Assembly: GCA_026995265.1 (NCBI GenBank)
Contig: JALWPC010000534.1
Span: 1 to 44,869, forward strand
Direction of reading: 5' to 3'
DNA: 44,869 nt
From: Paracoccaceae bacterium
Lineage (GTDB): Bacteria; Pseudomonadota; Alphaproteobacteria; Rhodobacterales; Rhodobacteraceae
This document shows positions 13,245-19,677 of this stretch, one piece after another. Below the pieces are notes generated by a model that had not been told where the DNA came from, did not search any database, and saw nothing but the letters and a program-made list of their open reading frames with translations. Position 1 is the stretch's first letter; each line of letters begins with the position of its first letter. A program made the position numbers and the translations under genes.

Positions 13245-13408
13245 CGGCGGGTGCTGGTCGTTGCGTGCAAAGGACCCATCCTAGTGGCCTTAATTCATCG
13301 AAAGGGAGCTGGCTCTGTGACTGGCCGTGGCCTATCTCATCTGGCGCCCACCTGGTTCTCCAGGCTCTCGAGGATCAGACCCCTTCACGAATGCTCCGGG
13401 CCCGCCAC
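13245..13408 (+). ncRNA. ssrS: 6S RNA (SsrS), RNA polymerase regulator
   Basis: The stretch has no coding signal but folds end to end. GGCGGG at 13246-13251 pairs with CCCGCC at 13401-13406, giving a rod of about 160 nt. Inside are an apical GAGC/GCTC pairing near 13306-13314 and a small hairpin CCTGG-TTCT-CCAGG at 13351-13364. 6S RNA lies immediately upstream of the 5-formyltetrahydrofolate cyclo-ligase gene in many proteobacteria, and that gene starts 19 bases further on. 6S RNA imitates an open promoter and binds sigma-70 RNA polymerase in stationary phase. The call rests on position and fold; the ends are approximate. Confidence 0.72.
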
Positions 13409-13426: not shown

Positions 13427-13987
13427 ATGAATATCGCCCTTGAAAAACAGGCCGCCCGAAAAGCGGCAATGGCCCGGCGCAAGCGGGCGCACAAGGCGGG
13501 CACCGGCGCGGCGGAAGCTGCCGCGCAACATTTGCTATCATGGCTGAAAACCCGGCCAAAGCTACAGACCATTGCCGGCTATATGCCAATTCATACCGAA
13601 CTGGATATTTTACCCGCCATGCACGCCCTGCACGAAAAAGGCCATGCGCTCTGTGTGCCGGTGATTGTCGGCAAGGCGATGCCGCTGAGATTTGGCGCAT
13701 GGGCACCGGACACCAAAATGACCAAAGGTGCCTTTGGCGCATTGGTGCCAGAGAACCCCAAATGGCTAACCCCCGAACTTCTACTCTGCCCGATGCTGGG
13801 TTTTGACAGTGCCTGCCAGCGCATGGGCTATGGCGGCGGGTTTTATGACCGCACAATCGCCGCGCTTTCACCCGTTCAGGCGATGGGGTTCGCCTATGCC
13901 GGGCAACAGGTGGACCACCTGCCAACCGAACCGACAGATATGCCATTGGACGGCGTCATAACCGAAACCGGTATTTTCTGGCCCTGA
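13427..13987 (+). CDS. ygfA: 5-formyltetrahydrofolate cyclo-ligase (5-FCL)
   Basis: Cytoplasmic ATP-dependent enzyme (186 aa) converting 5-formyl-THF to 5,10-methenyl-THF, a folate salvage step. The N-terminus has the basic substrate/ATP region KQAARKAAMARRKRAH. The C-terminal LLCPMLGFDSACQRMGYGGGFYDRTIA contains the family P-loop-like G-Y-G-G-G-F-Y-D-R motif. The frame is open far upstream (to 12470), but homology starts at MNIALEKQ (ATG 13427), and the upstream part overlaps the 6S RNA. Co-transcription with 6S RNA is likely, as in other proteobacteria. Confidence 0.93.
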   Translation: MNIALEKQAARKAAMARRKRAHKAGTGAAEAAAQHLLSWLKTRPKLQTIAGYMPIHTELDILPAMHALHEKGHALCVPVIVGKAMPLRFGAWAPDTKMTKGAFGALVPENPKWLTPELLLCPMLGFDSACQRMGYGGGFYDRTIAALSPVQAMGFAYAGQQVDHLPTEPTDMPLDGVITETGIFWP

Positions 13988-14099
13988 AGCCCCTAAACGG
14001 CCGTGCCCGATAGCACAAACCGCCCGCATTCCGGTCTTCCCCGCTCCTTTCTGCAGACCAGATCACTCTACCCAAACGCGCGGCATATACGGTTTTCCA

Positions 14100-14129
14100 T
14101 ATAACTACATTCCTAGGTATGTAGTTATA
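14100..14129. repeat. 30-bp near-perfect palindrome in AT-rich intergenic DNA
   Basis: Arms of 11 bp (TATAACTACAT, 14100-14110, and ATGTAGTTATA, 14119-14129) flank a centre T-CCTAGG-T; the whole 30 bp is self-complementary except one central pair. Downstream GCGTTATA recurs at 14148 and 14161. It lies in the 256-bp gap (13988-14243) between the converging 5-FCL and small DUF genes, in which I see no gene. It could be an operator, a weak AU-rich terminator or part of a small RNA gene. Confidence 0.6.
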
Positions 14130-14243
14130 AGTCGAAACATTATTATGGCGTTATAACAATGCGTTATATGAATATTTTTCGATGAATGGAAAGAAAACCG
14201 CAGAGGGATTCACTGCAGATCAGGCGGCCAATTCGTGGCGCAT

Positions 14244-14432
14244 CTAGCCCTTGATTGCGCGCGCCCGCATGGCGGCAGCCCGCAGCTCCTCAGCAATTTC
14301 CTCGGCCTCGTCAGGGTCGAAATCCAGCGGAATTTCAATGTTTTCCCCTTCGATAAACAGCCGCACCATGCCTTGGTCCGTCGGCCCGATTTGCAAATTC
14401 GCCGCAATATCACTCTGCTTATTAATGCCCAT
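14244..14432 (-). CDS. Small conserved protein, DUF6324-like
   Basis: Acidic soluble protein of 62 aa beginning MGINKQSDIAANLQIGPTD and rich in Asp/Glu with a C-terminal helix (DEAEEIAEELRAAAMRARA). It resembles a small Rhodobacterales-restricted family I know as DUF6324; the family name is from memory. I chose the ATG at 14432 over that at 14456 because AAAGGGAAAGGG lies about seven bases upstream and homology begins at MGIN. Function is unknown. It is divergent from tRNA-His. Confidence 0.75.
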   Translation of the reverse strand: MGINKQSDIAANLQIGPTDQGMVRLFIEGENIEIPLDFDPDEAEEIAEELRAAAMRARAIKG

Positions 14433-14795: not shown

Positions 14796-15611
14796 ATGAT
14801 GCTGGATACCCCCGAAAATGCAAAGGCTATGCAGCGCGCCAAGGGGCGGGCCGAGGTGGGCTTTGCGGCGCGCGGGCTCACGCGGCTTTACCAAAGCGGA
14901 TGCTGTAAAGTGCGGCTGCCAAAGGGTGGCTATCCCACGCCCGGGGCGGTGTTTATCAACACCTCGGGCGGGGTCACCTCGGGGGATCGACTGCACTATG
15001 TGGCAGAGGTCGGGGCGGAAGCCGCGCTCGATGTAACCACCCAGGCGGCCGAGCGTATTTACCGCGCCAACGGGGGATCGGCCCATATTTCCAACAGCCT
15101 TACTCTGGGGGAAAACAGCCGTCTGGACTGGTTGCCACAGGAAACCATTTTGTTTGAGGGGGCCGCTCTGAAGCGCCAACTCGACATCGAAATGGGCGAA
15201 AGCGCCTCCTTGTTGGCGCTCGAAACCGTGGTGCTTGGCCGCAGGGCGATGGGCGAAACCCTGCAATTGGTCGCGCTCTCTGACCATTGGCGCATCCGCC
15301 GTGGCGGGCGCCTGGCCTATGCCGACGCTTTGCGCTTTAACGCGCCCACTTTGCAAACCCGAAGCGCCGCCACCCTTGGCGGCCACCGCGCGCTGGCGAC
15401 CCTGCTTTACGTTGCTCCCGATGCCGAGGCGCGCCTGAGCCAGGCCCGCAGCCTGCTCCCCTTCCCCGGGGTCGAGGCCGCTGCCTCTGCCTGGAACGGG
15501 CTGCTCACCCTGCGCTTTCTCGCCCCCGACGCCCAGCCCCTGCGCGCGGCGCTTATTTCGTTTTTAACCCGGTTTCGCGGGCGGCCCCTCCCCCGCGTCT
15601 GGCAGATGTAA
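14796..15611 (+). CDS. ureD: Urease accessory protein UreD
   Basis: Urease maturation protein (271 aa; UreD/UreH family) that binds apo-urease and guides nickel from UreG through UreF to the active site. Family landmarks include [20 protein letters not shown] near the N-terminus, [11 protein letters not shown], and [15 protein letters not shown]. It is the first gene of the urease operon, as is usual in alphaproteobacteria. The start is ATGATG at 14796-14801, so either Met could be used. ureA follows after ten bases. Confidence 0.95.
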
Positions 15612-15621
15612 AGGCACATTC

Positions 15622-15924
15622 ATGAACCTGACCCCAAGAGAAAAAGACAAACTTATGGTGAGCCTCGCCGCCATGGTCGCCCGTGGGCGGCTGGCGCGCG
15701 GCGTAAAACTCAACCACCCCGAGGCGATTGCGCTGATCACGGACTTTGTGGTGGAAGGCGCGCGCGACGGCCGCCCGGTGGCCGACCTGATGCAGGCGGG
15801 GGCCGAGGTGCTTACCCGCGAACAATGTATGGAAGGCATACCCGAGATGATAACCGACGTGCAGGTGGAAGCCACCTTTCCCGATGGCACCAAGCTGGTG
15901 ACCGTTCACCACCCGATCCGATGA
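15622..15924 (+). CDS. ureA: Urease gamma subunit UreA
   Basis: Small structural subunit (100 aa) of urease, which hydrolyses urea to ammonia and carbamate in the cytoplasm. The start [17 protein letters not shown] and the core [21 protein letters not shown] and ending PIR are family hallmarks, and the length is normal. Its stop overlaps the start of the alarmone hydrolase gene in ATGA at 15921-15924. The gene that usually follows, ureB, is displaced by that insertion. Confidence 0.98.
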
Positions 15925-16466
15925 GCACCCTGCCCCAAGCCTATGCCTTCGCCGCACGTGCCCATACGGGTCAATTCCGTAAGGGCGCGGGGCAAGTGCC
16001 CTATATCAACCACCCCTGCGCCGTGGCGGCGCTGGTGGATAAGGCGGGCGGGAGTGAGGCCGCGATTGTGGCCGCTGTGCTGCATGATGTGGTGGAGGAT
16101 ACGCCGGTGACGCTGGCCGAGATTGAGGCTACGTTCGGGGCGGAGGTTGCGGGCCTCGTGGAGGCGCTGACGGACACGCCGGAGATGGAGGCCATGCCGA
16201 ATGCGGCGCGCAAAGCCCTGCAAGCCGAGAAGATCGCCCGCGCGCCAGAGGGCGCCAAGCTGGTGAAGCTCGCAGACCAAACCAACAACCTGCAAGACCT
16301 CTGCGGGGTGTTTGGCGATAAACCCGTGGCCGTGCGCAAGACCTACCTTGCGGGGGCCAGCGCCATAGCGGCACAATGCGCGGGGCTGTCGGGCTTTCTG
16401 GACGAGGCTTTTGCCGAGGCCGCCCGCGCCCTGCAAACCATGATAGACAAAGAGGAACAGATATGA
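15921..16466 (+). CDS. Stand-alone HD-domain small alarmone hydrolase (MESH1/SpoT-hydrolase-like) inside the urease operon
   Basis: 181-aa HD-family metallohydrolase without a synthetase, TGS or ACT domain. It resembles the hydrolase half of SpoT and animal MESH1, which remove pyrophosphate from (p)ppGpp. All Mn-binding and catalytic positions are present: H31 in YINHP, H55-D56 in LHD, E59-D60 in VED, and D119/N123 in [11 protein letters not shown]. Length and spacing closely follow MESH1 (about 179 aa). ATG 15921 overlaps the ureA stop, and the gene's own TGA overlaps the ureB start at 16463-16466, so it is translationally coupled to both urease subunits. It is not a known urease subunit or accessory protein. 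The alarmone substrate is inferred; MESH1 also acts on NADPH, so another phosphate substrate is possible. Confidence 0.88.
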
Positions 16467-16768
16467 TCCCCGGAGAGATTTTCCCTGCTGAGGGTAGCAT
16501 TGCCTTGAATGCGGGCCGCGCGGCGCAGGTGCTGATGGTCGCCAATACCGGCGACCGCCCCGTGCAGGTGGGCAGCCACTACCACTTTGCCGAGACCAAC
16601 CCTGCGCTGGAATTTGACCGCGCAGCGGCCCACGGGATGCGCCTGGACATCCCCGCCGGCACCGCTGTGCGCTTTGAGCCGGGGCAGCGGCGGGAGGTGT
16701 CGCTGGTGGAGATCGGCGGCGGGCGGAAGGTGTTTGGGTTTAACGGGCAGGTGATGGGGGGATTATGA
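16463..16768 (+). CDS. ureB: Urease beta subunit UreB
   Basis: Structural subunit (101 aa) of the trimeric urease protomer. The opening [26 protein letters not shown], and the region [18 protein letters not shown] with [10 protein letters not shown] are diagnostic. The start codon overlaps the alarmone hydrolase stop (ATGA). A 124-bp gap with a strong hairpin separates it from ureC, unusual in an otherwise overlapping operon. Confidence 0.98.
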
Positions 16769-16807
16769 GAGTTTGTTCATTGCCCCACCACAGCGCCCCC
16801 CTCCTAA

Positions 16808-16831
16808 CCTCCCCCCGCAAGCGAGGGGAGG
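16808..16831. repeat. GC-rich stem-loop between ureB and ureC
   Basis: CCTCCCC (16808-16814) pairs with GGGGAGG (16825-16831), with an inner CGC-AA-GCG. No T run follows. It may be an mRNA stability or processing element, or a dispersed palindromic repeat; I see only one copy here. Confidence 0.5.
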
Positions 16832-16892
16832 GACGCGCCTAGCTCGAACGTTTCGCTCCTCACTCAATACATTCAATTCATAGGACCACCCC

Positions 16893-18605
16893 ATGCCCCA
16901 CCACATCCCCCGCCCTGACTATGCCGCCATGTATGGCCCCACCACCGGAGACCGTATCCGCCTTGCCGATACCGACCTGATTATCGAGGTCGAGCGGGAC
17001 CTCACCACCTACGGCGAGGAGGTGAAATTCGGCGGGGGGAAGGTGATCCGTGACGGGATGGGGCAGTCGCAGGCCACGCGGGCCGAGGGGGCGGTGGATA
17101 CGGTGATCACCAATGCGCTGATTGTCGACCATGCGGGGATTTACAAGGCGGATGTCGGCCTGAAGGACGGGCGGATTGCGCGCATAGGCAAGGCGGGGAA
17201 CCCGGATACCCAGCCGAATGTGGACATCATTATCGGGCCTGGGACCGAGATTATCGCGGGCGAGGGGCGGATTTTGACGGCGGGGGGCTTTGACAGCCAC
17301 ATCCACTTCATCTGCCCGCAGCAGATCGAGGACGCGCTGCACTCGGGCCTCACCACCATGCTGGGCGGCGGCACGGGGCCGGCCCATGGCACCCTCGCAA
17401 CTACCTGCACCCCGGGGCCGTGGCATATCGGGCGGATGCTGCAAGCGGCGGACGCCTTCCCGATGAACCTCGCCTTTGCGGGCAAGGGGAATGCCTCGCT
17501 GCCCGCCGCGCTGGAGGAGCAGGTGCAGGCGGGGGCCTGTGCGCTGAAGCTGCACGAGGATTGGGGGACGACTCCGGCGGCGATTGACAACTGCCTGAGC
17601 GTGTCCGACGCTTGGGACGTTCAGGTGATGATCCACACCGATACCATCAACGAAAGCGGCTTTTTCGAGCACACCCGCAACGCGCTCAAGGGCCGCACCA
17701 TCCATGCCTTCCATACCGAGGGCGCGGGCGGCGGCCACGCACCGGACATCATCCGCATGTGCGGCGAGGATAACGTGATTCCCGCCTCCACCAACCCCAC
17801 CATGCCCTATACGGTCAACACGCTGGAGGAGCATCTGGATATGCTGATGGTCTGCCACCACCTCGATGCCGGCATCCCGGAAGACATCGCTTTTGCCGAA
17901 AGCCGGATCCGCCGCGAGACGATTGCCGCCGAGGATATTTTGCATGATATAGGCGCGTTCAGCATCATCGCCAGTGATTCACAGGCCATGGGGCGGGTGG
18001 GCGAGGTGATCATCCGCACGTGGCAAACGGCGGATAAGATGAAAAAACAGCGCGGGCGGTTGCCCGAGGAGGTGGGCGATAACGACAACCTTCGCGTGCG
18101 GCGCTATATTGCGAAATACACGATCAATCCGGCGATTGCGCAGGGGATGTCCAGGCATATCGGCAGCATTTCTGAAGGCAAACGCGCTGATCTGGTGTTC
18201 TGGAACCCTGCGTTTTTTGGCGTGAAACCGGAGATGGTGCTGCTGGGCGGCAGCATCGTAATGGCGCAAATGGGCGACCCGAATGCCAGCATCCCCACCC
18301 CGCAGCCGGTCTATTCCCGCCCGATGTTTGGCGCCTTCGGGCGCAACGTGGAGCACAGCGCGGTGGTGTTTACCAGCGCAGCGGCACAAGCCGATGGCAT
18401 TGCTGAAAAGCTGGGGCTGGCCAAGCAAACCGTGGCGGTGGAGAACACGCGCGGGGGCATTGGCAAGGCAGCCATGGTGCTGAATGATGCCACGCCGGAA
18501 ATCGAGGTGGACCCCGAAACCTACGAAGTGCGCGCCGACGGGGAGTTGCTGACCTGTGAGCCTGCCGAGGTGCTGCCCATGGCGCAGCGGTATTTTATGT
18601 TTTAG
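16893..18605 (+). CDS. ureC: Urease alpha subunit UreC
   Basis: Catalytic subunit (570 aa) of nickel urease. The dinickel site is complete: H136 and H138 in DSHIHFI, the carbamylated K219 in [11 protein letters not shown]248 in MIHTDT, H274 in HAFHTEG and D362 in ASDSQAMGR. The flap Cys321-His322 (VCHHLD) is intact. Numbering is two above the Klebsiella enzyme. AGGA precedes ATG 16893. All accessory genes needed for nickel insertion (ureD, E, F, G) are in the operon, but no nickel transporter is visible. Confidence 0.99.
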
Positions 18606-18614
18606 GAAGGCCCT

Positions 18615-19049
18615 ATGATCCGCGCCATCTCCGTCACACATTCCCATAGCTCCGAAAACACCGTCACCCTCAGCTATGACGACCGTTTCCTGCGCCGCAA
18701 GCTGCTGACCTCGGACCAAGGCGAGTCCTTCCTTGTGGACCTGCCCGAAACCGTGTCGCTCAACCATGGCGATGCTTTCAAGCTCGAAGATGGCCGCTTG
18801 GTTGGCGTCAGGCCCGCACAGGAGGACCTGCTGGAAATCAAAGGCGACCTCACCCGCCTTGCGTGGCATATCGGCAACCGCCACACCCCCTGCCAGATAG
18901 AGCCGCACCGGCTGCTGGTTCAGCGCGAGCATGTAATGCGTGATATGCTGGAAAAGCTCGGGGCGGAGCTGCGAGAGGTGACCGAGGCCTTCACCCCCGA
19001 GGGCGGGGCGTATGGGCATGGGCGCACCCATGGGCACAGCCATGGATAG
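18615..19049 (+). CDS. ureE: Urease accessory protein UreE (nickel chaperone)
   Basis: Nickel-binding metallochaperone (144 aa) that delivers Ni(II) to the UreDFG complex. The N-terminal domain holds DDRFLRRKLLT-type peptide-binding sequence. The C-terminal domain has LAWHIGNRHTPCQIE with the conserved metal His, then VMRDMLEKLGAE. The tail [10 protein letters not shown] is a short His-rich extension that should bind extra nickel. The 3' end overlaps the ureF start. Confidence 0.96.
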   Translation: MIRAISVTHSHSSENTVTLSYDDRFLRRKLLTSDQGESFLVDLPETVSLNHGDAFKLEDGRLVGVRPAQEDLLEIKGDLTRLAWHIGNRHTPCQIEPHRLLVQREHVMRDMLEKLGAELREVTEAFTPEGGAYGHGRTHGHSHG

Positions 19050-19677
19050 CGCCGCGCTGCATAAGCTCACCCAGTGGCTTTCACCCACCTATCCGGTGGG
19101 GGCGTTCAGCTATTCGCACGGGCTGGAATGGGCGATTTCAGCGGGGGACATTGCGGATGCCGCCACGCTTGAGGCATGGCTGCGAGACATCCTGACCCTT
19201 GGTAGCGGGCGCAATGACGCCATTCTGCTGGCCCATGCCTACCGCACCGATAGCCCCGCCGAAATCGCAGAGTTGGCAACGGCTTTGAACCCAAGTGCCG
19301 AGCGGCTGCTGGAAACAGAGGCCCAAGGGGCGGCGTTTGCCAAAACCACCCGCGCCATCTGGCCGGATGACCTGCCCGATATGCCCTACCCCGTGGCCGT
19401 CGGCACGGCGGCGCGCCAGCACGGGTTGCCGCTCGCAGAAACGCTCTCGCTTTACCTGCACGCCTTTGCCGCCAACCTTGTCTCTGCCGCCGTCCGCTTT
19501 TTGCCACTCGGGCAAACCGAAGGGCAGGCCGTGCTATGCGCCCTGTTTCCGACCATCGACACTATTGCAACCGAAGCCCTGACCGCCACGCTGGATGATC
19601 TCGGCGGCTGCGCCTTTCGCGCCGACATGGCCTCCATGCATCACGAGACCCTCAAAACAAGGATTTTTCGCTCATGA
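19042..19677 (+). CDS. ureF: Urease accessory protein UreF
   Basis: All-helical accessory protein (211 aa) that links UreG to UreD and acts in urease activation. It has the family start [21 protein letters not shown] and later [13 protein letters not shown]. In-frame ATGs occur at 19012, 19018, 19030 and 19042. I use 19042 (MDSAALHKL) because homology begins there and the overlap with ureE shrinks to eight bases; the upstream ones lie within the ureE His-rich tail. The stop overlaps ureG (ATGA). Confidence 0.94.

Follow-up and report, generated by a model that had tools for sequence, protein, structure and literature searches.

An extragenic palindrome in a Paracoccaceae bacterium as a putative dispersed operator of an autoregulated ArsR-type protein with a one-sided predicted IHF site

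The near-perfect palindrome at positions 14100-14129 of a Paracoccaceae contig is a putative operator of an ArsR-type protein whose gene, itself apparently autoregulated, lies elsewhere in the genome; it is accompanied on one side by a predicted IHF box, an identity well supported by sequence comparison. With modest confidence, we propose that such dispersed operators and their one-sided IHF sites form a composite extragenic element with an architectural, insulating or roadblock role at gene ends. The window (the whole stretch of 44,869 nucleotides that was analysed, contig JALWPC010000534.1 of assembly GCA_026995265.1) contains the following features at and around the site.

13427..13987, + strand: gene for 5-formyltetrahydrofolate cyclo-ligase (ygfA/MTHFS; PF01812, 3.9e-29; TIGR02727, 1.1e-41), converging on the site
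14100..14129, no strand: putative palindromic operator of class a, TATAACTACATTCCTAGGTATGTAGTTATA, core ACTACATNCCTAGGNATGTAGT, assigned by sequence match to the operator of the C627 regulator
14130..14150, no strand: AT-rich spacer from the operator to the IHF box, the centres of palindrome and box being ~43-44 bp (~4 helical turns) apart
14151..14166, + strand: predicted IHF box TTATAACAATGCGTTA (core TAACAANNNNTTA, 14154-14166), from an EM motif (17.7 bits), pointing away from the palindrome
14244..14432, - strand: DUF6324 gene (PF19849, 1.6e-35), converging on the site

The palindrome is laid out as TATAACTACAT-T-CCTAGG-T-ATGTAGTTATA, with a single mismatched pair (T/T) beside the CCTAGG centre and 15-nt arms that are 93% complementary. 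It lies in an AT-rich islet (GC 0.29 over 14100-14199 against 0.55-0.65 in the surroundings) between the converging stops of the cyclo-ligase gene at 13987 and the DUF6324 gene at 14244. Direct repeats of GCGTTATA follow it at 14148 and 14161, and the predicted IHF box takes in most of them. The initial annotation, made from the letters of the window, had described the palindrome, the islet, the converging 3' ends and the direct repeats, and all four descriptions were confirmed. Elsewhere in this neighbourhood, a 6S RNA-like match at 13248-13406 (+) lies directly upstream of the cyclo-ligase gene, where 6S RNA is known in other bacteria, with 29.6 of the 46.4 bits of the Rfam cut-off and thus under it. 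A urease-like gene run was read from translations at 14796-19677 (+), with an HD-type hydrolase-like open reading frame (15921-16466) between its ureA- and ureB-like genes.

The palindrome had also been called isolated, which is true of the window, where the class pattern matches once, but not of the genome. The source genome (G000) is a fragmented MAG of 666 contigs, 96.8% complete with 3% contamination, and within it the full 30-bp pattern occurs in nine places and the 22-bp core ACTACATNCCTAGGNATGTAGT in 15, both at up to three mismatches. The looser pattern CTANNNNCCTAGGNNNNTAG (CTAN4CCTAGGN4TAG) was found in 61 places and the related pattern ACTAAACNNGTTTAGT (ACTAAACN2GTTTAGT) in 27, so that the site lists, compiled by pattern searches, comprise 88 sites of the two wider classes. 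Reversed control patterns matched nowhere in the genome in the 30-bp, 22-bp core and CCTAGG-class searches. None of 89 listed sites falls within a gene called by a home-made codon model trained within the analysis; a single site extends a few bases into a weak open frame. Within classes b and c, the outer positions of the arms show more symmetry than shuffled arms do, a pattern also compatible with a hairpin; changes in the core arms are no more symmetric than in shuffles. As a separate observation, class-c palindromes are embedded in a ~360-bp non-coding dispersed repeat with nine copies of ~66-86% identity (L117, L129, L133, L148, L141, L135, L114, L115 and L123), some of which adjoin another repeated module of ~280 bp; an Rfam scan of four of these loci gave no match.

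The partner regulator was recognised from a tandem overlapping operator pair (C627:766-803), in which the class-a core recurs at up to two to three mismatches, directly before a 90-aa gene (C627:828-1097; MKPTGKQKSMAIFFDALAHPRRMML..., MKPT...). The C627 protein combines a winged helix-turn-helix fold with ArsR-type similarity, the features of the ArsR/SmtB family: it scores above the cut-off for HTH_20 (PF12840) and slightly under it for NF033788 (50.5 of 55), its HMMER matches include ArsR, PagR, YgaV, NolR and SmtB, and the structures nearest to it in Foldseek are YgaV, ArsR, NolR and SmtB. The AlphaFold2 model of its 73% orthologue has a mean pLDDT of 93.7. The protein contains no cysteine and lacks a Cys-type metal site, which does not bar it from the ArsR fold, because not every ArsR-fold protein is a Cys metal sensor; a His-based or non-metal ligand is conceivable.

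The link between protein and palindrome recurs across the genus, in which close homologues (13 genomes) share 51-100% identity. The upstream regions of 21 homologues were inspected, and in most of them a palindrome lies directly before the ribosome-binding site, with a sequence specific to its class (e.g. of the ACTACAT/ACTAGAT type); at L046, L055, L056 and L066 it is degenerate, was left unscored by the script and retains CCTAGG. G000 encodes the C627 protein and three paralogues, each with its own palindromes, at least four operator classes occur in this one genome, and the regulator of the GACCTC-ACTAAACYGG subtype, not found in G000, may lie in sequence missing from the MAG. CCTAGG sites are present in 8 of the 13 genomes, exclusively those whose regulators have a CCTAGG operator, and ACTAAAC sites in 7 of the 13, exclusively those with an ACTAAAC-type operator; these counts come from non-independent genomes of one genus and include the regulators' own operators, which makes presence partly circular for genomes with few sites (e.g. 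G010 and G005) and not for those with ten or more. Four genomes (G001, G003, G008 and G011) have neither site class and no close regulator homologue. The window site thus shares its sequence with the promoter region of the C627 gene, and its copies exist only where that regulator class does. Of the suggestion that the palindrome is a regulator site for an unseen transcript, the first half is borne out by this match to an ArsR-type operator.

The regulator genes themselves show further constraint. At the position of the IHF box they carry ATGAAACCAAC, which is the start of MKPT; the Pro3 codon is CCA in all 21 genes, against 6% of proline codons genome-wide, and the Lys2 codon is AAA in all 21, whereas other invariant residues differ in codon. 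This invariance points to a constraint on the DNA. Moreover, a TTAA-N7-TTAA-like motif (seven or eight of eight matches) is located upstream of 18 of the 21 genes, compared with 13% in shuffles, mostly at -66 to -69 (L042-L071). This motif corresponds to the CtrA consensus, and control of the regulator genes by CtrA is a lead that these promoter sequences offer.

The second component of the element came from an EM search of the flanks of the 88 sites, which returned TAATAWCAATATGTTA; at 64 sites this box begins 35-37 bp away from the centre of the palindrome. The box is found on one side only, faces outward and is present in every operator class. The consensus for IHF is WATCAANNNNTTR. When positions were checked with this consensus instead of the trained EM matrix, the strict form lay at offset 36-41 in 11 of 15 hits and the relaxed form WAHCAANNNNTTR in 27 of 33 (26 of them at 38-40), against none of four hits on the opposite strand. 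In two genomes outside the training set (G007 and G009), all six relaxed hits lay at the expected offset of 36-41. The consensus therefore occurs at a non-random position, and binding by IHF is predicted from it; the box in the window matches the relaxed form only (TAACAANNNNTTA). Some boxes (L162, L167, L152 and L023) are placed at 44-48 or 60-62 bp rather than at 36, approximately whole helical turns further out. A third motif, TTCTAYCTWAAGGTGT-like and partly driven by the class-c repeats, was seen opposite the box. The spacing of the box does not fit a -35/-10 promoter, and that reading was abandoned.

Since most copies carry a predicted IHF site at a fixed distance, the data suggest a system that spans the chromosome, and not a product of chance or a relic. 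A chance or relic origin, raised in the initial annotation for a palindrome with neither copies nor conservation, is contradicted on both counts by the copies in the genome and by conservation of the site in a sister species (G007). In G007, the gap between the DUF6324 and cyclo-ligase genes holds the element ACTACAATCCTAGGAATGTAGT with its box, in the same orientation as in the window, and similarity to the window in the remainder of the gap is not obvious by eye, the flanks having diverged. In G002 and G004 the DUF6324 and ygfA genes abut and the element is absent. Site positions turn over, as only 10 of 33 sites in G007 have one or both neighbours in common with a site in G000, and 6 of the 33 have both, one of these being the regulator gene itself.

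Outside the genus, homologues at 1e-15 were detected in only two other genomes among 199 family genomes. One of them, G015, represents a second genus with a closed 3.56-Mb chromosome and has one homologue, preceded by ACTAAACCGGTTTAGT, together with ~27 extragenic palindrome copies distributed around the chromosome. Here the box is placed at 36-37 bp and also at 24-25 bp, approximately one helical turn closer, and fewer sites carry it. In another Rhodobacteraceae genus (G159, L292-L297), at least seven extragenic palindromes ACTCAACTAGTTGAGT were observed, with no evident IHF box.

Among scored gaps of G000, compared with other gaps of at least 100 bp in the same sequence by tests chosen after the data were seen, convergent gaps are enriched (22 of 74 site gaps against 13 of 104 others; OR 3.0, p=0.007) and divergent gaps are depleted (12 of 74 against 42 of 104; OR 0.29, p=5e-4). 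The same holds for G015, where convergent gaps account for 14 of 25 scored sites and 5 of 58 other gaps (OR 13.5, p=9e-6) and divergent gaps are depleted (OR 0.06, p=2e-4). This avoidance of divergent promoters and preference for gene ends argues for an architectural, insulating or roadblock role. It also weighs against an ordinary regulon, in which each palindrome would be the promoter operator of a neighbouring gene or of a small unannotated RNA starting at the site, an explanation that we consider unlikely while taking it seriously. In its favour, ArsR proteins normally repress promoters, the palindromes of the regulator genes themselves overlap the promoter region beside the CtrA-like TTAAN7TTAA motif, and several dispersed sites lie upstream of genes read from translations, such as a paaA-like gene, or in the divergent gap between malate synthase and aminopeptidase N genes. 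As about half of the scored gaps in G000 are tandem and 12 of 74 are divergent, some sites may affect promoters. However, the CtrA-like motif is present in only 19 of the 132 flanks of dispersed sites, close to the rate in shuffled regulator promoters, the window site has no promoter-like match, and Rfam gave no hit there or in the scanned class-c repeats. The "unseen transcript" half of the earlier suggestion falls on the same evidence, as the window site has no promoter- or terminator-like match and no Rfam hit, and only box, spacer and palindrome are visibly kept between G000 and G007; its companion, a small RNA gene or promoter, is disfavoured by the lack of Rfam and promoter matches at the site.

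A repetitive extragenic palindrome or MITE-like mobile repeat, copied without a role and merely sharing its sequence with the regulator's operator, would account for many extragenic copies, for the inclusion of class c in a ~360-bp dispersed repeat, for the symmetry of the outer arms and for the turnover of positions. We nevertheless judge it improbable. Outside class c, the copies share only box, spacer and palindrome when their flanks are printed and profiled, the site classes track the regulators, the element is kept at an orthologous gap despite diverged flanks, and no transposase gene was seen by inspection in the neighbourhoods examined. In the window, a CTGCAGAYCAG direct repeat (14051-14061 and 14213-14223) and the pair CGGTTTTC/GAAAACCG (14090 and 14193) flank the site and resembled a target duplication and terminal repeats of a transposon or MITE, a candidate that was rejected because such pairs are no commoner than expected by chance. 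The 112 sites examined yielded 20 flanking-repeat pairs against 14-24 in shuffles, so that the terminal inverted repeats and target-site duplication expected of a MITE are no more frequent than with shuffled partners.

A bidirectional terminator, in which the palindrome would form an RNA hairpin between the two converging genes, seems very improbable. The enrichment of convergent gaps, the predicted RNA fold (-11.3 kcal/mol) and the location of many G015 sites ~45-90 bp past stop codons would suit it, but the frequency of T-tracts after the arms does not exceed background in G000 and does so only slightly in G015, the window site has no terminator-like match and lacks the GC-rich stem followed by a T tract of an intrinsic terminator, and the need for a hairpin leaves both the fixed IHF box and the match to the regulator's operator unexplained. 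A role in site-specific recombination or integration, as a dif, loxP-like or attachment site, another suggestion of the initial annotation, is scarcely credible: the 11-8-11 layout of the palindrome resembles recombinase core sites and IHF participates in several recombinase complexes, but ~88 copies of the palindrome classes exist in one genome where one or few would be expected, their classes co-occur with an HTH regulator, flanking repeats are not in excess, and no match was found in viral contigs, phages or plasmids, a result on which a phage or plasmid origin was likewise rejected.

Among known systems, the C627 protein shares the winged-helix fold with NolR, YgaV/BigR, SqrR, SmtB and ArsR, and members of the ArsR family usually have an operator in their own promoter. 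The differences are the lack of cysteine in the 90-aa protein, tens of mostly non-promoter sites and at least four operator classes in one genome. The matS, parS, SlmA and Noc sites are likewise palindromes scattered over the chromosome regardless of promoters, each set bound by one dedicated protein, but their sequences and proteins are unrelated to those described here, and no segregation or division role is implied. In its working the element most resembles BIME-1 of E. coli, which consists of two inverted REPs and an IHF-binding segment (PMC2817692), as both place many copies of an extragenic palindrome, combined with an IHF site, in gaps between genes; the IHF site is recognised here by consensus only. 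It differs from BIME-1 in its autoregulated ArsR-type partner, its one palindrome per element and its IHF box outside the palindrome. REP palindromes, which bear a GT(A/G)G head, are linked to RAYTs, tyrosine transposases flanked by two inverted REPs (PMC2817692); GTAG occurs within an arm of the window palindrome and not as a head, no transposase was seen beside the sites read, and the element is not classed as a REP or BIME. As in the RAYT-REP pairing, the abundance of each palindrome class follows the presence of its protein gene, and the two co-diverge, but here the proteins belong to the winged-helix regulators and their operator lies in the promoter. The CIR1-4 intergenic repeats of Caulobacter, which are ~110 bp long with two arms and a GANTC motif (PMC2229807), are similar in being alphaproteobacterial, extragenic inverted repeats of several classes, whereas by inspection the window element (14100-14166) contains no GANTC. 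The neisserial Correia/NEMIS elements are also dispersed and intergenic with an IHF site, but they are MITE-like (PMC2229807) and have no link to a regulator. Literature searches returned nothing specific on such elements in Rhodobacter or Roseobacter.

Taken at face value, the proposed mechanism would begin with the C627 protein, which presumably binds the palindrome as a dimer, both in its own promoter, where it would autoregulate, and at about a dozen chromosomal sites. The three paralogues in G000 would act likewise through their own palindromes, giving ~88 sites overall. IHF would bind and wrap the DNA beside each palindrome, and the ArsR-type dimer and IHF may form one nucleoprotein complex, serving as an architectural, insulating or roadblock site at gene ends and not in the control of a nearby promoter. 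We infer that an architectural or insulating protein-bound site is to be favoured over a promoter operator, a small RNA promoter, a terminator or a mobile repeat.

More tentatively, marine Rhodobacteraceae may possess a chromosome-organising or transcription-insulating system in which gene ends all over the chromosome are marked by IHF and by small autoregulated ArsR-fold proteins that have a palindrome apiece, with up to four orthogonal protein-site pairs in one cell, possibly under CtrA control, and with co-divergence of protein and site. If true, this would add a kind of repetitive extragenic palindrome that is based on a regulator and not on a transposon, in which a transcription-factor fold occupies scattered sites, mostly off promoters, next to a fixed IHF partner. 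The set of paralogues, each matched to its palindrome, also lends itself naturally to following the co-divergence of a protein and its operator specificity.
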